This document shows, piece after piece, positions 14,325-25,682 of a stretch of DNA of 49,759 nt; positions within the stretch are counted from its first letter, which is position 1; each line of letters begins with the position of its first letter. The position numbers were made by a program, and so were the translations under genes. The stretch comes from Dehalococcoidia bacterium (lineage in GTDB: Bacteria; Chloroflexota; Dehalococcoidia; Dehalococcoidales; Fen-1064): NCBI GenBank assembly GCA_011171075.1, contig DUFD01000048.1, positions 1 through 49,759 of the forward strand, given 5' to 3'. The notes below the pieces were generated by a model, which was given only the letters and a program-made list of their open reading frames with translations, had not been told where the DNA came from and made no database searches.

Positions 14325-14345
14325 CCAAGGGGGAAACCCCCTTGG
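14325..14345. repeat. Perfect palindromic hairpin (9-bp arms)
   Basis: CCAAGGGGG, loop AAA, CCCCCTTGG. It is followed by a run of short G/C blocks (GGTATCCCCCG, AAGGGGTTACACCCC), a pattern like the extragenic palindromic repeats seen between genes in this group of bacteria. It may also end transcription of the HAD gene. Confidence 0.7.
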
Positions 14346-14491
14346 TATCCCCCGTCCAAAGGGGTTACACCCCTCTTGACACCCCAAAACGGTGAGTGGA
14401 CTGGTTCTTGGCAGGTGCCTTCGCACCTAAAACAGAGCCGGGAATCGGATGTGAAAATATATCATTCCCAGATGATGCTAAAGGGAAGTTT

Positions 14492-14512
14492 AAGAGGGGC
14501 TACGCCCCTCTT
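14492..14512. repeat. Perfect palindromic hairpin with T-rich tail, possible terminator
   Basis: AAGAGGGGC, loop TAC, GCCCCTCTT, followed by CTTTATTTTCCC. The stem is perfect over 9 bp and the tail is T-rich, so it can act as a terminator on the plus strand, but its resemblance to the block at about 14359-14377 suggests a member of an extragenic repeat family. Confidence 0.65.
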
Positions 14513-14703
14513 CTTTATTTTCCCCCTTCCCCTCTGGGGAAGGGGATTCAGGGGATGGGGCCTCCACCACCGAACAGGGAATGAAGCAAATAAAAAATGT
14601 ATAAGGTTTACCTATAATATGCTGCCTGAACATGACTGATTGAAAAACAGGCTGGATTTTCGATATAATAGTTAGGTTCCATTCACGGAATCAGATGTCT
14701 CAT

Positions 14704-14856: not shown

Positions 14857-14932
14857 GCGCCTATAGCTCAGCGGATAGAGCATCGGTCTTCGGAACCGGG
14901 GGTCGGGGGTTCGAATCCCTCTGGGCGCGCCA
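14857..14932 (+). tRNA. tRNA-Arg (anticodon TCG)
   Basis: Cloverleaf with acceptor GCGCCTA/TGGGCGC, D-arm AGCTCAGCGGATAGAGC, anticodon loop CTTCGGA (TCG, reads CGA), T-loop GGTTCGAATCC and encoded CCA. It stands at the left edge of the accessory block; tRNA-Arg 3' ends are frequent integration sites. Confidence 0.96.
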
Positions 14933-15303: not shown

Positions 15304-18147
15304 CTAGTGTCCCATAGCTTCCTTCAGGTCAAGGTCAAGCCAGCGGTACTTGGCGCTGCCCCAGTAGTTGTAGTAGCCGACGGCATATGTGCCGTAGTAG
15401 TTCTTTACCCACGGCCACCACAGAGTGTAGTATTCCGGGACCACCGAGGGGATACAGTAGGCCTGCTCGAGGAGCCACGGCATCAGCTCCTTGTTTACTG
15501 CCATCATTGCAGCTTCGTCCAGACCAACATACCCTATCATTTCACCATAGGCCTCTTCAATCTCAGGCACACTGTAGTCCTCGTTAATACGGCTGACGTT
15601 GTAAGAGCTAGTACCCCTGAAGTCTATCATCTTCATGTAGGTACCATTACCCGAGTCGGTAGCGTACATTATCTCATAGGCATCGTAGTTTCTGCTACGG
15701 GCACGGCTGTTGTATGTGGCTTGGTCAACAATATCGAGTGACATGTTGATGCCGATGTCTGCCAGCATCTCCTGGTATATGGAGAGGATATCTATCATGG
15801 CGGGTGTCTGCCAGCAGATGACACTGCAGTCGAATCCATCGGGGTAGGGAGTCGTGGCCAGCAGCGCCTGGGCTGCCTCCACGTCACATCCGTAGAGCGC
15901 CGCGACATCATCGGGCAACTCTTCGAGGGTGGGCATGGCAGCCTGATATTCCTTGGTGGGTGTCAGCGGCCAGGTCAGTATCTCGCCCGAGCCCTGCCAG
16001 TAGCTGCCCCTTATCAGCGGCTGGTCTATGGCCAGCATCATTGCCTGCCTAACCTCTTTGATGCTGAAAGGTGACTCGGGCATATCCGTCCTGAAGAACA
16101 TGGCGTTAACCCCGTCGGGGAGGTATTCCTTATATTCTATGTCGCTCATCTTGGAGTCGGTGATAATAGGCTGGGCATCGTTGTAGGGCATTGAGACCAG
16201 TACATCAATATCCGCCGAACGAAATGCCGCTTCCCTGACCGAGGAGTCTGGTACAATCACATACTGACATTCGTCCAGGTAGGGCAGCCGGTTTCCCATA
16301 CCAGGGCCAATAGGGTCAGTCTCCCAGTAATTCGGATTTCTGGTAAAGGTAGCCTGGCTGTTGGAGACAAAATCGGTCAGTATGAACGGGCCGGTGCCGA
16401 CCACGTTCTCCCACTCTGTCTCGCCGCCATATTCCTCAACCACCTCAGGGCATACTATTGAGGTGTAATCCGGTATCAGAGTTATCATGTTGACCCACTC
16501 TGATACGGGGACCGAAACGGTTACTGTGCGTGCAGCATTATCGGATGTTATCTCGATGGTCGCGCACATACTGGCATAGAAGTAGGCGAAATAGCCCTCG
16601 GACACCGCCCGCTCCAGGGACTGCCTGACATCGCTGGCGGTCAGCAAACGGCCGTTCACCGGCTCCTTGTACTGCCATCTGACCCCCTGGCGGATGTGGA
16701 AGATGATTGTACCAAGTTCGGGTATCTCCCAGCTATCGGCCAGGCAGCCCGTCTTCAGGTCCATGCGGTTATCGCCACCATTCATGAAGTCGGACTCACC
16801 GGTGCCGGCCGGCCCCTTCGTCCAGTCACCCTGTAACAACTCATTTTTAGTCAGCGTGTTGGCGGGAGCATAGACGTGCCCCCCATAATTACCACCGACG
16901 ACCTCGTCAAAGTAGGTAATATCCGTAGTTCTGGCGACCACGTGTTTGCCTCCATACATCGGCTCCGATGCGAAGTGTGCAGTAACAGTTTTATCAGAAT
17001 CCATACTGATTACAGTCGAGCGCCCTGTACCTTCGGCATCCCCGGACCAATACTCAAATCCGTAATTCTCGGACGGCGTGGCTGTCAGAATAATTGAGTC
17101 ACCTTTATTGTATGAACCACTCTCGTGACTGACGCTTCCGCCCCCGGGCGGGTCCACTGTTACCGTCAGTTGGCAGTATATAATCTCTGTGAAGTGGGCA
17201 GTGACATTTTTATCAGAGTCTATAGTTATTTCAATATCTTGCTCTGTCCCCTCAACATCACCTGACCACTGATCAAACCTGTAGTTCTCAGACGGTGTGG
17301 CTGTCAGAGTAAATGAATCACCGTCATCGTATGAACCACTCTCAGGACTGACACTTCCGCCCCCGGGTGGGTCTACTATTACTTCCAGCTGGTAGGTTGC
17401 AGTCTCTGAACCACCACCATCTCCATCGGTAGATTCTTTATCTGACCATAATCCGGGGAGGAATATCACACCTGCCGCTACAAGAACACCCAGGACGACT
17501 ACTACTGTCAAAGTCTTTGGAAGCCAGCTGTATTTCCGGCCCTCAGCCCTCCCGGTCCAAAACCAGAAGAGTCTGGTCAGTCTTCCGCCGGTCCGGGGAG
17601 GTTTCTCCTCGGAGACAGCCTTCACCTTCGCTGCCGCCTTGGCTTCACGCTCCTCTCGCTGTACTACTGCCTCTGAGATTTTACCAGCCAGTTCTTCAGG
17701 CCGACTTTCTTCTACCGAGACCGGTTGAGGCCTGATTCCATATCTCTGGGTCAGGAGCGTTTGCACCGTATCAGCAAGCTGCTGCAGGTGCTTTTCCAGG
17801 GGTGGAGTATAAGCATCGAGCCACTGGTGACTGCTGATGTAAAAATCCATGGATTTAGACGGAGGTGCATTATCTATCCGGAGTGGGATAATGGGAATGT
17901 CCCTGCTGGCGGCTCTGCCAACCTCCCTTATTACCTGGGGTGAGTTGTTGGAGTCGGCCGACAACACCACGACGAATATACGACTCTCTTCAAGCGCATC
18001 GACTATCGACTCAACCCAGTCAGCGCCGGGCAGAATATCACGAGGTGCTATCCAGCAGCGTATGCCCCTTGATTCAAGCATGACGCACACTGCCTCGGCA
18101 ACCTGCTTATCAGGTGATGAATAGCTTATAAAGACATCGTGAGCTAT
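15304..18147 (-). CDS. TIR domain - membrane helix - two InlB-B-like repeats - solute-binding domain fusion
   Basis: A single unbroken frame of 947 codons from a putative ATA start at 18147 (928 residues from GTG 18090). Domains, in GTG numbering: TIR (to about 118; GIRCWIAPRDILPGADW, and a candidate catalytic Glu56 in SPQVIREV); a charged linker; one membrane helix (about 193-212, basic on its N-side, so N-in/C-out); two divergent InlB B-type repeats (about 232-372, TATPSENYxFxxWSGDxEGT); and a complete family-5 oligopeptide-type solute-binding domain (about 375-928). The frame upstream of GTG encodes HDVFISYSSPDKQVAEAV, the canonical TIR opening, so GTG 18090 would cut the domain. No ABC permease or ATPase genes are nearby, so the binding domain is probably a sensor. 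TIR domains of this type can be NADases. It lies on the same strand as the AAA+/RyR gene, 166 bases downstream. Confidence 0.85.
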   Translation of the reverse strand: MAHDVFISYSSPDKQVAEAVCVMLESRGIRCWIAPRDILPGADWVESIVDALEESRIFVVVLSADSNNSPQVIREVGRAASRDIPIIPLRIDNAPPSKSMDFYISSHQWLDAYTPPLEKHLQQLADTVQTLLTQRYGIRPQPVSVEESRPEELAGKISEAVVQREEREAKAAAKVKAVSEEKPPRTGGRLTRLFWFWTGRAEGRKYSWLPKTLTVVVVLGVLVAAGVIFLPGLWSDKESTDGDGGGSETATYQLEVIVDPPGGGSVSPESGSYDDGDSFTLTATPSENYRFDQWSGDVEGTEQDIEITIDSDKNVTAHFTEIIYCQLTVTVDPPGGGSVSHESGSYNKGDSIILTATPSENYGFEYWSGDAEGTGRSTVISMDSDKTVTAHFASEPMYGGKHVVARTTDITYFDEVVGGNYGGHVYAPANTLTKNELLQGDWTKGPAGTGESDFMNGGDNRMDLKTGCLADSWEIPELGTIIFHIRQGVRWQYKEPVNGRLLTASDVRQSLERAVSEGYFAYFYASMCATIEITSDNAARTVTVSVPVSEWVNMITLIPDYTSIVCPEVVEEYGGETEWENVVGTGPFILTDFVSNSQATFTRNPNYWETDPIGPGMGNRLPYLDECQYVIVPDSSVREAAFRSADIDVLVSMPYNDAQPIITDSKMSDIEYKEYLPDGVNAMFFRTDMPESPFSIKEVRQAMMLAIDQPLIRGSYWQGSGEILTWPLTPTKEYQAAMPTLEELPDDVAALYGCDVEAAQALLATTPYPDGFDCSVICWQTPAMIDILSIYQEMLADIGINMSLDIVDQATYNSRARSRNYDAYEIMYATDSGNGTYMKMIDFRGTSSYNVSRINEDYSVPEIEEAYGEMIGYVGLDEAAMMAVNKELMPWLLEQAYCIPSVVPEYYTLWWPWVKNYYGTYAVGYYNYWGSAKYRWLDLDLKEAMGH

Positions 18148-18162
18148 GCTACTGATACCTCC
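18145..18162 (-). promoter_or_regulatory. RBS and putative ATA start codon of the TIR fusion
   Basis: GGAGG at 18162-18158, then ten bases, then ATA (18147-18145) followed by codons for AHDVFISYS. An in-frame TGA lies 10 codons before the ATA (18177-18175), and no ATG, GTG or TTG occurs between it and GTG 18090. ATA occupies the place where an ATG would give the typical TIR N-terminus. Confidence 0.55.
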
Positions 18163-18313
18163 GTTATCGACTCATCCCCTATGTTAACTCCAGCCAAGAG
18201 CCGGTGTATCTTACTGAGAGCCAGTACAGACGTACTGACCACCAGAGATTCGGGCAGGCATTTCTAAATTTCAATCATAATACCACAAAACCAGGCCAAT
18301 CCTGCCTGTATTA

Positions 18314-21007: not shown

Positions 21008-21362
21008 CGTATTTTACGCACTCTTAGAATAATTACCATCTACAAACGCTTTCGGGATTGATTTTACTGCCCGACAGAATAGCTGTCAATAATCCAACGT
21101 ACAGTACGTGTACGGTCGGTATTGCAGACCAAGCTCCCGTTCGAGGATAAACCGAAAGACAGAAGAATAACAATACAACTTCAAGCATGAGACGACCGGC
21201 AGATATGTATCGTACCTAGATAAGAGCAAGCCCAGTGACACGTTCGGTGGGATTTTGACGATTAACCAGGCCGAAGCTACCTGAAGGCCGAATTCGCCTC
21301 CAGACCAGTTCTTGCTTCCAATTACCAGCTACATTGCATCGCTTAACATCTATTCAGATTCA

Positions 21363-21391
21363 TTGACAGCCCCTACTACCGTACCTATAAT
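21363..21391 (+). promoter_or_regulatory. Consensus promoter of the RCK/RyR membrane protein gene
   Basis: TTGACA at 21363-21368, exactly 17 bases, TATAAT at 21386-21391. Both hexamers are perfect consensus. The start codon is 77 bases after the -10, leaving a leader with two competing stem options. Confidence 0.82.
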
Positions 21392-21467: not shown

Positions 21468-23237
21468 TTGAATAGCATCAAACCGACCACGAGAATAAGG
21501 CGGTGGCTTGGCAGATACAAATGGTTATTAATTGGGCTAATGTGGGTGCTGGTAATATCGCTCGGTTACGTTGGATTTGCCAAGTATTTCAACAGCATCG
21601 GTGACACACATTCTTTCGGTGACATCCTCTATCGAACCCTTCAGCTATTCGCCCTGGAATCCGGGGCAGTATCAGGACCCATTGGCTGGGAATTACAGGC
21701 AGCCAGGTTTCTTGCCCCCGTAATGGCTGTCTATACTGCCATACAGGCGGTGGCCAGTATTTTCTGGGCGCAGACTCAGCTGTTCCGTGTGCGGTTTATC
21801 AGAAACCACGTAGTAATCTGCGGGTTAGGCCGCAAGGGGTATCTCCTGTCTCAGGCTCTCCGCAACCGGGGGGAGAGAGTTGTAGTAATCGAACAGGATA
21901 CAGGTAACGATTTTCTCGAGCAATGCCGGGAAAATAGCATCACGGTCTTAATCGGCGATGCAGCTGACCCCGCATTACTTCGCCAGGCGAGGGTAGATAG
22001 AGCCAAGTACGTCATATGTATCTGCGGCAGCGATGGTACCAATGCAGAAATCGCGGTGAATGTGCATAAGCTAGTCAGCGGACGGAAAGGCAAGGCACTT
22101 CCGTGTCTTGTTCACATGTACGACCTCCAGCTCTATAACCTACTCCGCGAGCGGGAGATGACGATGGGTGAAATAGATGCCTTCAGGCTGGAATTCTTTA
22201 ACGTTTTTGAAAGCGGGGCCAGAGTCCTTCTCCAAGAACACCCACCCTTCAATGATACTCCAGGTCAGAGGTCCCATATCGTAATAGTAGGGCTTGGACG
22301 GCTGGGTGAAAGCATTGTGATAAACGCAGCTAGAGCGAAGTGGGAGAGTCATGCTGCGGATTCGGACCAGCTCCGCATTACGGTGATTGACAAGCAGGCA
22401 AACACCAAAACTGAATCGTTATGCATTCGATATCCACAACTGGAGAAGGCCTGTGAACTGGTACCCAAGCAGATGGATGTTAAAGAGCCTGATTTTGAAC
22501 GTGGTGATTTTCTTCTTAACGACCAAGGATATCCCGATGTAAATATGGTCTATGTTTGTCTGGATGACGATTCTAACGCATTAAGCACTGCCTTGATACT
22601 GCACCAGCAGCTCAAGGCGCTAGGGATTCCTATTGTAGTACGGATGCTATATGAAGCAGGCCTAGCCACCCTGCTCCGGAAAAGAAATATAGACCATGAT
22701 AGTTTTGTTAATCTGCATGTTTTCGGACTTCTCGAGCGTACGTGTACCCCTGAGTTGATATCCGGGTGTACCTATGAAATTCTGGCACGTGCGACTCACG
22801 AAAAGTACGTAGCAAGTGAGAGGGAAAAAGGCTCTACTCCAGAGACGAATCCCTCTATGCTACCATGGGAGGATTTACCAGAAGTCCTCAGGGAATCCAA
22901 TAGAAATCAGGTTGAGCATATCCGGGTCAAACTGGAGGCCATTGGATGTGATATTGCAGTTACCAATGCTTGGGATGTACAACCGTTTCAATTCTCTGAA
23001 GAAGAAGTGGACTTCTTAGCACGTATGGAACACGAGCGCTGGATTGACGAGCGGCAACGGGCTGGGTTCACATATAAGACCACTGATAACCAGAATAAGA
23101 CTCACCCGGACCTTGTACCATGGGAACAACTGCCTGAAGAAGAGAAGGAGAAAGATAGAGACGTAATACGCCAACTCTCGGAGCTATTATCACAAGCTCG
23201 TTTCCAGATTTATCGATTCAGGGAAAAGCGTATATAG
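21468..23237 (+). CDS. Two-helix membrane protein with two RCK/TrkA-N domains and tandem RyR domains
   Basis: A 589-residue protein, TTG start behind AGGGAGA. Two membrane helices (about 17-40 and 78-101) flank a pore-loop-like segment, as in two-helix potassium channels, but no TVGYG-type selectivity filter is present (the loop reads LQLFALESGAVSG). Two Rossmann RCK/TrkA-N domains follow (HVVICGLGRKGYLLSQAL at about 114; HIVIVGLGRLGESIV at about 270). The C-terminus has two RyR domains (about 434-498 with MLPWEDLPEVLRESNR; about 511-584 with FLARMEHERWIDERQ and LVPWEQLPEEEKEKDR). The second RyR unit is strikingly like that of the divergent AAA+ protein, so both probably answer to the same signal. 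Likely an ion-conducting or membrane-bound effector; ion specificity unknown. Confidence 0.85.
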   Translation: MNSIKPTTRIRRWLGRYKWLLIGLMWVLVISLGYVGFAKYFNSIGDTHSFGDILYRTLQLFALESGAVSGPIGWELQAARFLAPVMAVYTAIQAVASIFWAQTQLFRVRFIRNHVVICGLGRKGYLLSQALRNRGERVVVIEQDTGNDFLEQCRENSITVLIGDAADPALLRQARVDRAKYVICICGSDGTNAEIAVNVHKLVSGRKGKALPCLVHMYDLQLYNLLREREMTMGEIDAFRLEFFNVFESGARVLLQEHPPFNDTPGQRSHIVIVGLGRLGESIVINAARAKWESHAADSDQLRITVIDKQANTKTESLCIRYPQLEKACELVPKQMDVKEPDFERGDFLLNDQGYPDVNMVYVCLDDDSNALSTALILHQQLKALGIPIVVRMLYEAGLATLLRKRNIDHDSFVNLHVFGLLERTCTPELISGCTYEILARATHEKYVASEREKGSTPETNPSMLPWEDLPEVLRESNRNQVEHIRVKLEAIGCDIAVTNAWDVQPFQFSEEEVDFLARMEHERWIDERQRAGFTYKTTDNQNKTHPDLVPWEQLPEEEKEKDRDVIRQLSELLSQARFQIYRFREKRI

Positions 23238-23463: not shown

Positions 23464-24012
23464 ATGGAAGAGCAACTGTATAATTTCCTCACTACGGGAA
23501 CGTATCTCTGTAGCGAATCGGTTACTTGGGGTAATGGTACTATACCTCTCCAGAGTAAGTATTATCTAAGCAATAAACAACCTCCTTTAAAATATGTATC
23601 CTCTGTGCGTGCGATTGTTTTTCGAGAAAACTCCGTTCTAGTTATTACGAGTCGTCAAGGTCAGTTGTATATCCTTCCGGGAGGACGAGTAGAAACGGGT
23701 GAACTTCCACTAGAAACTCTTAAACGCGAAGTGCTTGAGGAAACAGGATGGTCTTTGCGCACGACAGTATTACTAGGTTTCATGCACTTCAAGCATTTAG
23801 GACCAAAACCGGATAATTACGAATACCCATATCCTGATTTCATCTGGCCGATTTATATTGGTGAAGCAAATAGATATACCCCCGAGGCTATACTACCAGA
23901 TGATTGGGTGAAACAATCTCATTTCCAACTGATTAGAGAGGTGCAAAATCTGCCCATCAGAGAAGGTGAGATATTGCTGCTCGACGCGGCATCAAAATTA
24001 CGAGAGAAGTAA
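23464..24012 (+). CDS. NUDIX hydrolase
   Basis: A 182-residue NUDIX-fold hydrolase that would cleave a nucleoside diphosphate linked to another group. The box is complete: GRVETGE, then seven residues, then REVLEETGW. The strand ILPGG precedes it, and a long N-terminal extension (about 45 residues) is present. Such enzymes can act on ADP-ribose, NADH, capped nucleotides or dNTPs; the sequence does not decide. The gene is AT-richer than the core genes and lies after the RCK/RyR gene on the same strand. If the TIR protein makes ADP-ribose-type products, a NUDIX enzyme is a natural signal-clearing partner, but this is inference. Confidence 0.88.
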   Translation: MEEQLYNFLTTGTYLCSESVTWGNGTIPLQSKYYLSNKQPPLKYVSSVRAIVFRENSVLVITSRQGQLYILPGGRVETGELPLETLKREVLEETGWSLRTTVLLGFMHFKHLGPKPDNYEYPYPDFIWPIYIGEANRYTPEAILPDDWVKQSHFQLIREVQNLPIREGEILLLDAASKLREK

Positions 24013-24066: not shown

Positions 24067-24111
24067 CCACGAGTACGCATGGCTGGACAAACACCCCGAT
24101 GTTTGTTCAAT
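24067..24111 (+). repeat. Copy 1 of a 45-base hairpin repeat
   Basis: It is identical to 25554-25598 at 43 of 45 positions and in the same orientation. The right part forms an imperfect hairpin, TGGACAAACAC CCCG ATGTTTGTTCA. It follows the NUDIX stop by 54 bases. Copies 1 and 2 flank the acyltransferase gene as direct repeats. Confidence 0.8.
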
Positions 24112-25379: not shown

Positions 25380-25682
25380 ACTATAAAGTAAATTGCAAAT
25401 GGGCAAAAGCACCACACAATGCTTTTATACAGTCATAAGGATTGCTCATATTCTTATGAGTGATAGAAATACCCTTATCATAATGACAATTGCGACATAG
25501 CGTTATTCGTTGAGTTTGATGTTTCACTTTAAATTAAACGCAAAAGGCATCATCCACGAGTACGCATGGCTGGACAAACATCCCGATGTTTGTCCAATAG
25601 TGAGTAAGGGCTTCAACGATTCTGTTGGTTGGTGCCGCCTTGCCCGTCCTAAATACTGTGAGGCCGCAGGGCAATGGCCCAC
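25380..25682. other. Spacer with hairpins and repeat copy 2
   Basis: No credible gene. AAAAGCA (25405-25411) pairs with TGCTTTT (25420-25426), a weak terminator for the acyltransferase gene. CTCATA TTCT TATGAG (25445-25460) is a second hairpin. The 45-base repeat lies at 25554-25598, and the ORF that runs through it is not supported by any family. Confidence 0.55.
25554..25598 (+). repeat. Copy 2 of the 45-base hairpin repeat
   Basis: It contains a perfect 11-bp hairpin: TGGACAAACAT (25571-25581), loop CCCG, ATGTTTGTCCA (25586-25596), preceded by the conserved flank CCACGAGTACGCATGGC. One of the two differences from copy 1 converts a G-T pair and the other an A-C mismatch into Watson-Crick pairs, so this copy is the better-folded one. 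Confidence 0.8.

Follow-up and report, generated by a model that had tools for sequence, protein, structure and literature searches.

A receptor-like TIR protein with a predicted extracellular solute-binding domain, encoded beside RyR-domain genes in a Dehalococcoidia bacterium

Results

Genes at the locus

We analyzed a stretch of 49,759 nucleotides from a Dehalococcoidia bacterium (Chloroflexota, order Dehalococcoidales; contig DUFD01000048.1 of assembly GCA_011171075.1), hereafter the window. The features that are relevant to this study are as follows.

14857 to 14932, plus strand: tRNA-Arg, the border of the cassette, where synteny with a congener ends
15307 to 18147, minus strand: receptor-like protein with a TIR domain, a transmembrane (TM) helix, two InlB B repeats and a family-5 solute-binding (SBP_bac_5) domain, 947 aa counted from an ATA codon
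17707 to 18147, minus strand: its TIR domain, catalytic Glu75 present, AlphaFold2 pLDDT 93
17458 to 17514, minus strand: its TM helix, residues 212-230, positive inside
16966 to 17421, minus strand: its two Flg_new_2/InlB B repeats, about residues 243-394 (Pfam)
15307 to 16965, minus strand: its solute-binding (SBP) domain (Pfam), 79.5% identical to a permease-linked SBP of the same genome
18314 to 20956, minus strand: protein with a ribokinase fold, an AAA+ domain and tandem RyR domains (RyR-AAA), upstream, separated from the TIR start codon by about 170 nt
21061 to 21391: divergent promoter-like sites, 21089-21061 on the minus strand (11 of 12) and 21363-21391 on the plus strand (12 of 12), consensus matches only
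21468 to 23237, plus strand: 2TM-TrkA_N-RyR protein (TrkA-RyR), divergent, from Pfam and helix prediction
23464 to 24012, plus strand: Nudix hydrolase that adjoins the cassette, membership uncertain

Synteny with the congener G002 extends through tRNA-His and tRNA-Arg (14857-14932) and ends there, with the cassette starting about 370 nt beyond tRNA-Arg. The GC content, about 0.55 upstream, drops to 0.41-0.50 between 18 and 26 kb, as would be expected for acquired DNA. Two repeats were also observed in this region. One is a 45-nt direct repeat, 96% identical (24067-24111 and 25554-25598), around an acyltransferase gene in the low-GC stretch, and the other is a likely dispersed repeat at 14325-14600 that has many copies of 70-87% identity in congeners G001 and G002.

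A single frame joins a TIR domain to a solute-binding domain

The minus strand frame 15304-18171 runs from stop to stop over 955 codons with no internal stop, and the single gene within it (18147-15307) codes for a TIR domain, one membrane helix, two InlB-B repeats and an SBP_bac_5 domain. Specifically, Pfam places TIR_2 (PF13676) at residues 5-124 (6.7e-25, 88.4 bits versus a curated cut-off of 28), Flg_new_2 in two stretches (4.5e-35) and SBP_bac_5 (PF00496) at residues 468-836 (4.8e-55, 187.6 bits versus a curated cut-off of 32.4). The InlB-B repeats constitute a 219-nt tandem duplication that is 76% identical, and the relatives of the fused SBP in the PDB are AgaA, DppA and OppA. The helix has six K+R and one D+E on its N-terminal side versus one K+R and six D+E on its C-terminal side, so that the TIR domain is predicted to be inside and the SBP outside of the cell. 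No homologue of the DppB/DppC permeases is present in the window. These results agree with a first-pass annotation of this DNA, which had described an uninterrupted frame with a receptor-like layout in which the SBP has no role in local transport; the same annotation had raised the prospect of the two halves being separate genes with an intervening stop, which was looked for and not found.

The apparent start codon of this gene is an ATA at 18147 that is preceded at 9 nt by GGAGGT. The first ATG, GTG or TTG in frame is a GTG at 18090, and a start at that position would lose beta-strand 1 of the TIR domain. As no canonical start codon keeps this strand, translation must begin at the ATA. TIR relatives have a Met exactly at this position, and the ATA may represent a non-canonical AUA start, a mutated ATG or an error in the sequence. 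This is the main caution regarding the window's own copy, expression of which may be weak or absent. The occurrence of ATA at a conserved Met position is what would be seen in a decaying or barely expressed gene that was silenced by an ATG-to-ATA change. However, we consider such decay to be distinctly unlikely given the good Shine-Dalgarno sequence, the 947 intact codons, the retention of Glu75 and of the partner genes, the acceptance of ATA as a rare start in translation table 11, and the possibility that the assembly, which is in 53 contigs, has one base wrong here.

Regarding activity of the TIR domain, an alignment of 25 TIR domains from the TIR/RyR system shows that Trp32, Ser63, Glu75 and Pro88 are invariant in all 25. 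An AlphaFold2 model of the window's TIR domain (pLDDT 93, pTM 0.87) has as its best structural matches the TIR domains of SPARTA, of AbTir with bound 3AD, and of SARM1. Together, the invariant residues and the matches of the model make TIR catalysis likely. Loss of the catalytic Glu, which the first reading had named as the observation that would speak against it, is thus not the case, and the model is confidently NADase-like.

RyR-domain proteins are encoded next to the TIR gene

Pfam assigns an AAA domain and two RyR domains to the RyR-AAA protein of the window, with the RyR R12 profile (PF02026) scoring 86.1 bits versus a cut-off of 27.4. A model of this protein (pLDDT 85.5) matches RyR R12 structures (6uhi) and ribokinase-fold kinases, with the ribokinase-fold part placed at the N-terminus by position. 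RyR-AAA has no NCBIfam model and no match in phages, and no PADLOC model matches the RyR partner proteins.

Phage RyR-domain proteins bind or cleave 2'cADPR and 3'cADPR via H75, W78, H100 and D117 (PMC13232231, 2026 preprint). The C-terminal RyR domain of the window's RyR-AAA contains H816, W819, H841 and D858, which is the same spacing as in the phage protein RyDEP (H, W at +3, H at +25 and D at +42), and the H, W, H and D are kept in 65, 61, 37 and 52 of 67 homologues, respectively. The H and W are also kept in loci without a TIR neighbour, so conservation of these residues is not specific to TIR loci. As judged from the alignment, it supports nucleotide binding generally, and not TIR coupling in particular. 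Among homologues that lack a TIR neighbour there are also some in which N or D replaces H841, where a different use is possible.

The promoter-like sites suggest one transcript that would carry RyR-AAA followed by the TIR-SBP gene, plus a divergent TrkA-RyR transcript. The Nudix gene was considered as a conserved partner and rejected, as none was found near the other RyR-AAA loci. The initial description of the TIR-SBP protein as a possible one-component sensor is not supported, since its gene is located in a recurrent multi-gene neighbourhood with RyR-domain proteins.

TIR genes with exchangeable sensors recur at RyR-AAA loci

Close relatives of the window's TIR domain are present in 4 of 156 genomes of the order, and all 4 are among the 7 genomes that contain RyR-AAA (Fisher p 1.5e-6 for co-occurrence over the 156 genomes, uncorrected for relatedness). 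A scan of named genomes located 79 further RyR-AAA loci in Chloroflexota, Acidobacteria, Clostridia and others, many of them from metagenome bins for which single phylum labels may be wrong. A TIR gene is present in 23 of these 79 loci (24 of 80 with the window), with a few of the 23 calls being weak or partial (L120, L163), and it lies at a distance of at most 1 kb in 15 of the 79 and of at most 3 kb in 20 (402 kb examined). Control loci from the order, 271 kb in total and not taxon-matched to Anaerolineae, contain no TIR gene. TIR_2 is generally scarce in the order, with 28 matches listed across 151 genomes. A TrkA-RyR gene is present in 21 of the 79 further loci (22 of 80 with the window), and two additional stretches (L188, L191) contain TIR and TrkA-RyR pairs with no RyR-AAA in the stretch examined.

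Many RyR-AAA loci have no TIR gene in the flanks examined, above all those of Clostridia and Pelosinus. The Clostridium and Pelosinus loci L147-L167 mostly contain RyR-AAA with neither TIR nor TrkA-RyR in their flanks, and RyR-AAA may have a different use there. A SLOG-like gene is present in 37 of the 80 loci, and in almost all of these it is next to RyR-AAA or fused with it; the members tested have no Pfam, NCBIfam or PADLOC match. Note that these SLOG-like ('GVTGHR') genes, for example L119:12645-13205, are named from a sequence pattern only. Large proteins with a start that looks DUF4062-like by eye were also observed at 19 of the 80 loci (such as L103:12648-17681 and L110:5420-10675) and are a possible partner.

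The sensors carried by TIR neighbours of RyR-AAA include WD40 propellers, GH43_C2, PPC repeats and SBP_bac_5, as well as fn3/carboxypeptidase-regulatory-like domains or lectin plus TPR domains. A single RyR-AAA locus can contain as many as three TIR genes that differ in their sensors (L104, L105, L115), and one 7 kb stretch (L043:1-6822, genome G079) contains genes for TIR-TPR, TIR-zinc ribbon, caspase-InlB, SLATT-like and RyR-only proteins together with a RyR-AAA fragment. A constant TIR domain with a variable sensor and a constant RyR partner is what would be expected if the RyR protein receives the TIR product.

Fused solute-binding domains resemble those of resident importers

The TIR-SBP architecture is not unique to the window and is also present in two other genomes. 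One TIR-SBP_bac_5 protein (L063, genome G137, from another family of the order) has 894 aa, an SBP match of 3e-77 and three predicted helices after the TIR domain, an odd number that predicts that its SBP is also outside. The other (L102, Chloroflexota bacterium CSMAG_2180) has 772 aa and an SBP match of 4.6e-49, and its gene is 126 nt from RyR-AAA. Their SBPs show about 29-32% identity to that of the window in partial alignments. Furthermore, congener G001 has a protein with a caspase domain, Ig-like repeats, one helix and an SBP that is 71% identical to the window's. Its gene (L035:6912-10451, minus strand) codes for a caspase-Ig-TM-acidic linker-SBP_bac_5 fusion of 1180 aa and adjoins a DUF4384 gene. 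An 867-aa TIR ORF of G007 was evaluated as another TIR-SBP of the window's family and rejected, as it has no SBP match. A chimeric assembly or chance fusion of frames might be suspected from the single copy of the fusion in a draft genome of 53 contigs; however, this explanation is strongly disfavoured by a junction without a stop and by the recurrence of the architecture, with different SBPs, in two further genomes, in one of which it adjoins RyR-AAA.

In a tree of SBPs, the window's domain pairs with G000C46 from the same genome (79.5% identical), which is located beside two permease genes. The SBP of the caspase fusion pairs with G001_b (78.9% identical) and that of L063 with G137C41 (64% identical), which is also beside permease genes. 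Thus, for three of the four fused SBPs the closest relative is a stand-alone SBP of the same genome, which indicates repeated capture from resident importers. As read from this tree, effector domains are predicted to have been joined to copied SBPs of resident importers in independent events, each inside one lineage. Part of the pairing pattern could also result from gene conversion between paralogues.

For the L102 lineage, G541:C5 was evaluated as a stand-alone SBP and rejected, since its ORF is truncated by the start of the contig and since it has exactly the TM segment of the L102 TIR-SBP. The closest relative of the L102 SBP is probably a second, tandem TIR-SBP gene that is cut by contig ends. 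The juxtamembrane and TM segments of L102 and of this putative copy are identical and their SBPs are 71% identical, which would represent divergence of the sensor on a constant TIR-TM part if the genes are indeed tandem. The nearest stand-alone SBP of this lineage is 42.6% identical. The probable split pair corresponds to L102:1-2739 and L198:3-1832. As a separate observation, L041:721-11356 of G003 contains five near-tandem SBP genes, an expansion of the family that supplied the fused domain.

The 79.5% identity to a permease-linked SBP of the same genome would also suit a membrane-tethered scavenger or transport accessory that feeds importer permeases encoded elsewhere, with the TIR domain merely clustering the SBP. 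We regard such a role as very unlikely, given that the window has no permease homologue, that the TIR retains its catalytic Glu, that RyR genes accompany the TIR family whichever sensor is present, and that a caspase can stand in the TIR's place.

Discussion

The reading that we rank first, with a probability of about one half, is a ligand-gated signal that is generated by the TIR domain and read by RyR proteins. Specifically, the extracellular SBP would bind a small ligand, probably the same peptide-like compound as the importer SBP from which it was copied, and closure on this ligand would act through the InlB-B stalk and the helix to bring TIR domains together inside the cell. The TIR domains would then cleave or cyclise NAD+ into an ADP-ribose-type signal, and the neighbouring RyR-AAA and TrkA-RyR proteins, the latter resembling a K+ channel, would bind this signal and either execute or terminate a defence or stress response. 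The architecture, topology, catalytic residue, TIR fold, RyR linkage, sensor swapping, SBP capture and conserved RyR residues come from computation. From these we infer which ligand is bound, that binding activates the protein, what chemical signal is made, how the RyR proteins act and any involvement in defence. It is gene neighbourhood that suggests the link from TIR to RyR, and the RyR proteins could be degraders rather than readers of the signal. Regarding phage defence, PADLOC gave no match for the partner genes.

Ranked second, and in our judgment unlikely, is a TIR domain that functions as a terminal NADase effector, with a ligand or membrane insult leading to NAD+ depletion and growth arrest, and with the RyR proteins acting only as brakes or in clean-up. 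The closest folds do include the NAD-depleting TIRs of SPARTA and SARM1, RyDEP cleaves cADPR (PMC13232231), and a Nudix gene adjoins the cassette. However, RyR-AAA is a large multidomain protein, and the up to three TIR genes at one RyR-AAA locus fit several inputs with one reader better than they fit redundant killers. Extending the preferred RyR-read signal to a general scheme of modular transmembrane NAD+ signalling, with swappable extracellular or WD40 sensors on TIR domains, an ADP-ribose messenger and RyR-domain readers that include TrkA-N/RyR proteins of the K+-channel type, is a tentative step that we hold as possible rather than probable. Such a scheme would be the bacterial equivalent of the action of cADPR on ryanodine receptors.

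If true, the ligand-gated signal would be an undescribed bacterial route from an outside chemical to an internal alarm, with TIR enzymes serving as ligand-gated surface receptors in bacteria that borrow their specificity from the cell's own peptide importers. It would also place RyR domains in a cellular context, outside of phages, as the readers of messengers that TIR enzymes make. Whether cADPR-type molecules act on ryanodine-receptor domains, and by what means, is an old question on which this bears directly and which becomes testable with small soluble bacterial domains.

Neither a TIR domain with a solute-binding protein nor one with RyR-AAA was found in the literature searched, which did not extend to Burroughs et al. 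2015 (NAR), a work that reportedly covers nucleotide-centric conflict systems, possibly with RyR domains, and in which earlier notice is possible. The TIR/RyR cassette appears to be uncatalogued. An SBP sensor is new among TIR proteins, and the caspase-TM-PBP arrangement has a precedent in the EACC1 two-gene caspase systems (Kaur et al. 2020, PMC7159879). Those systems similarly have an N-terminal effector, a membrane helix and an extracellular periplasmic-binding-protein domain, with variable C-terminal domains, but the window's protein has a TIR domain in place of the caspase and RyR-AAA as the partner. Bacterial TIR-WD40 and TIR-TPR proteins likewise combine a TIR domain with C-terminal sensors that can be exchanged, and several of these proteins adjoin RyR-AAA as well, whereas the window's sensor is a solute-binding domain outside of the cell. 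Animal Toll-like receptors, by analogy only, also have an extracellular ligand domain, one helix and an intracellular TIR domain; in the window's protein, the domain order is reversed with the TIR at the N-terminus, there are no leucine-rich repeats, and the sensor is unrelated. RyDEP (PMC13232231) shares with the window's RyR-AAA protein the RyR domain (PF02026) with H, W, H and D ligand residues at equal spacing. However, RyDEP is a phage counter-defence protein, whereas the RyR domains of the window belong to large host proteins whose genes are linked to those for TIR proteins.

Finally, Thoeris (a ThsB TIR plus a reader) resembles this locus in having a TIR gene beside a gene for a nucleotide-derivative-binding domain and a supposed ADP-ribose-type messenger. 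None of the known Thoeris effectors (SIR2-SLOG ThsA, TM-macro or other) is among the adjacent genes, for which the Pfam domains are AAA, RyR, TrkA_N and Nudix. The window's TIR also differs in being membrane-anchored with an extracellular sensor, and the candidate readers are RyR-type, with SLOG-like partners in other loci, rather than ThsA. The Thoeris trait of a TIR gene adjacent to a candidate reader gene is nevertheless present, with RyR-AAA adjacent and TrkA-RyR next, and this arrangement is replicated in other loci.
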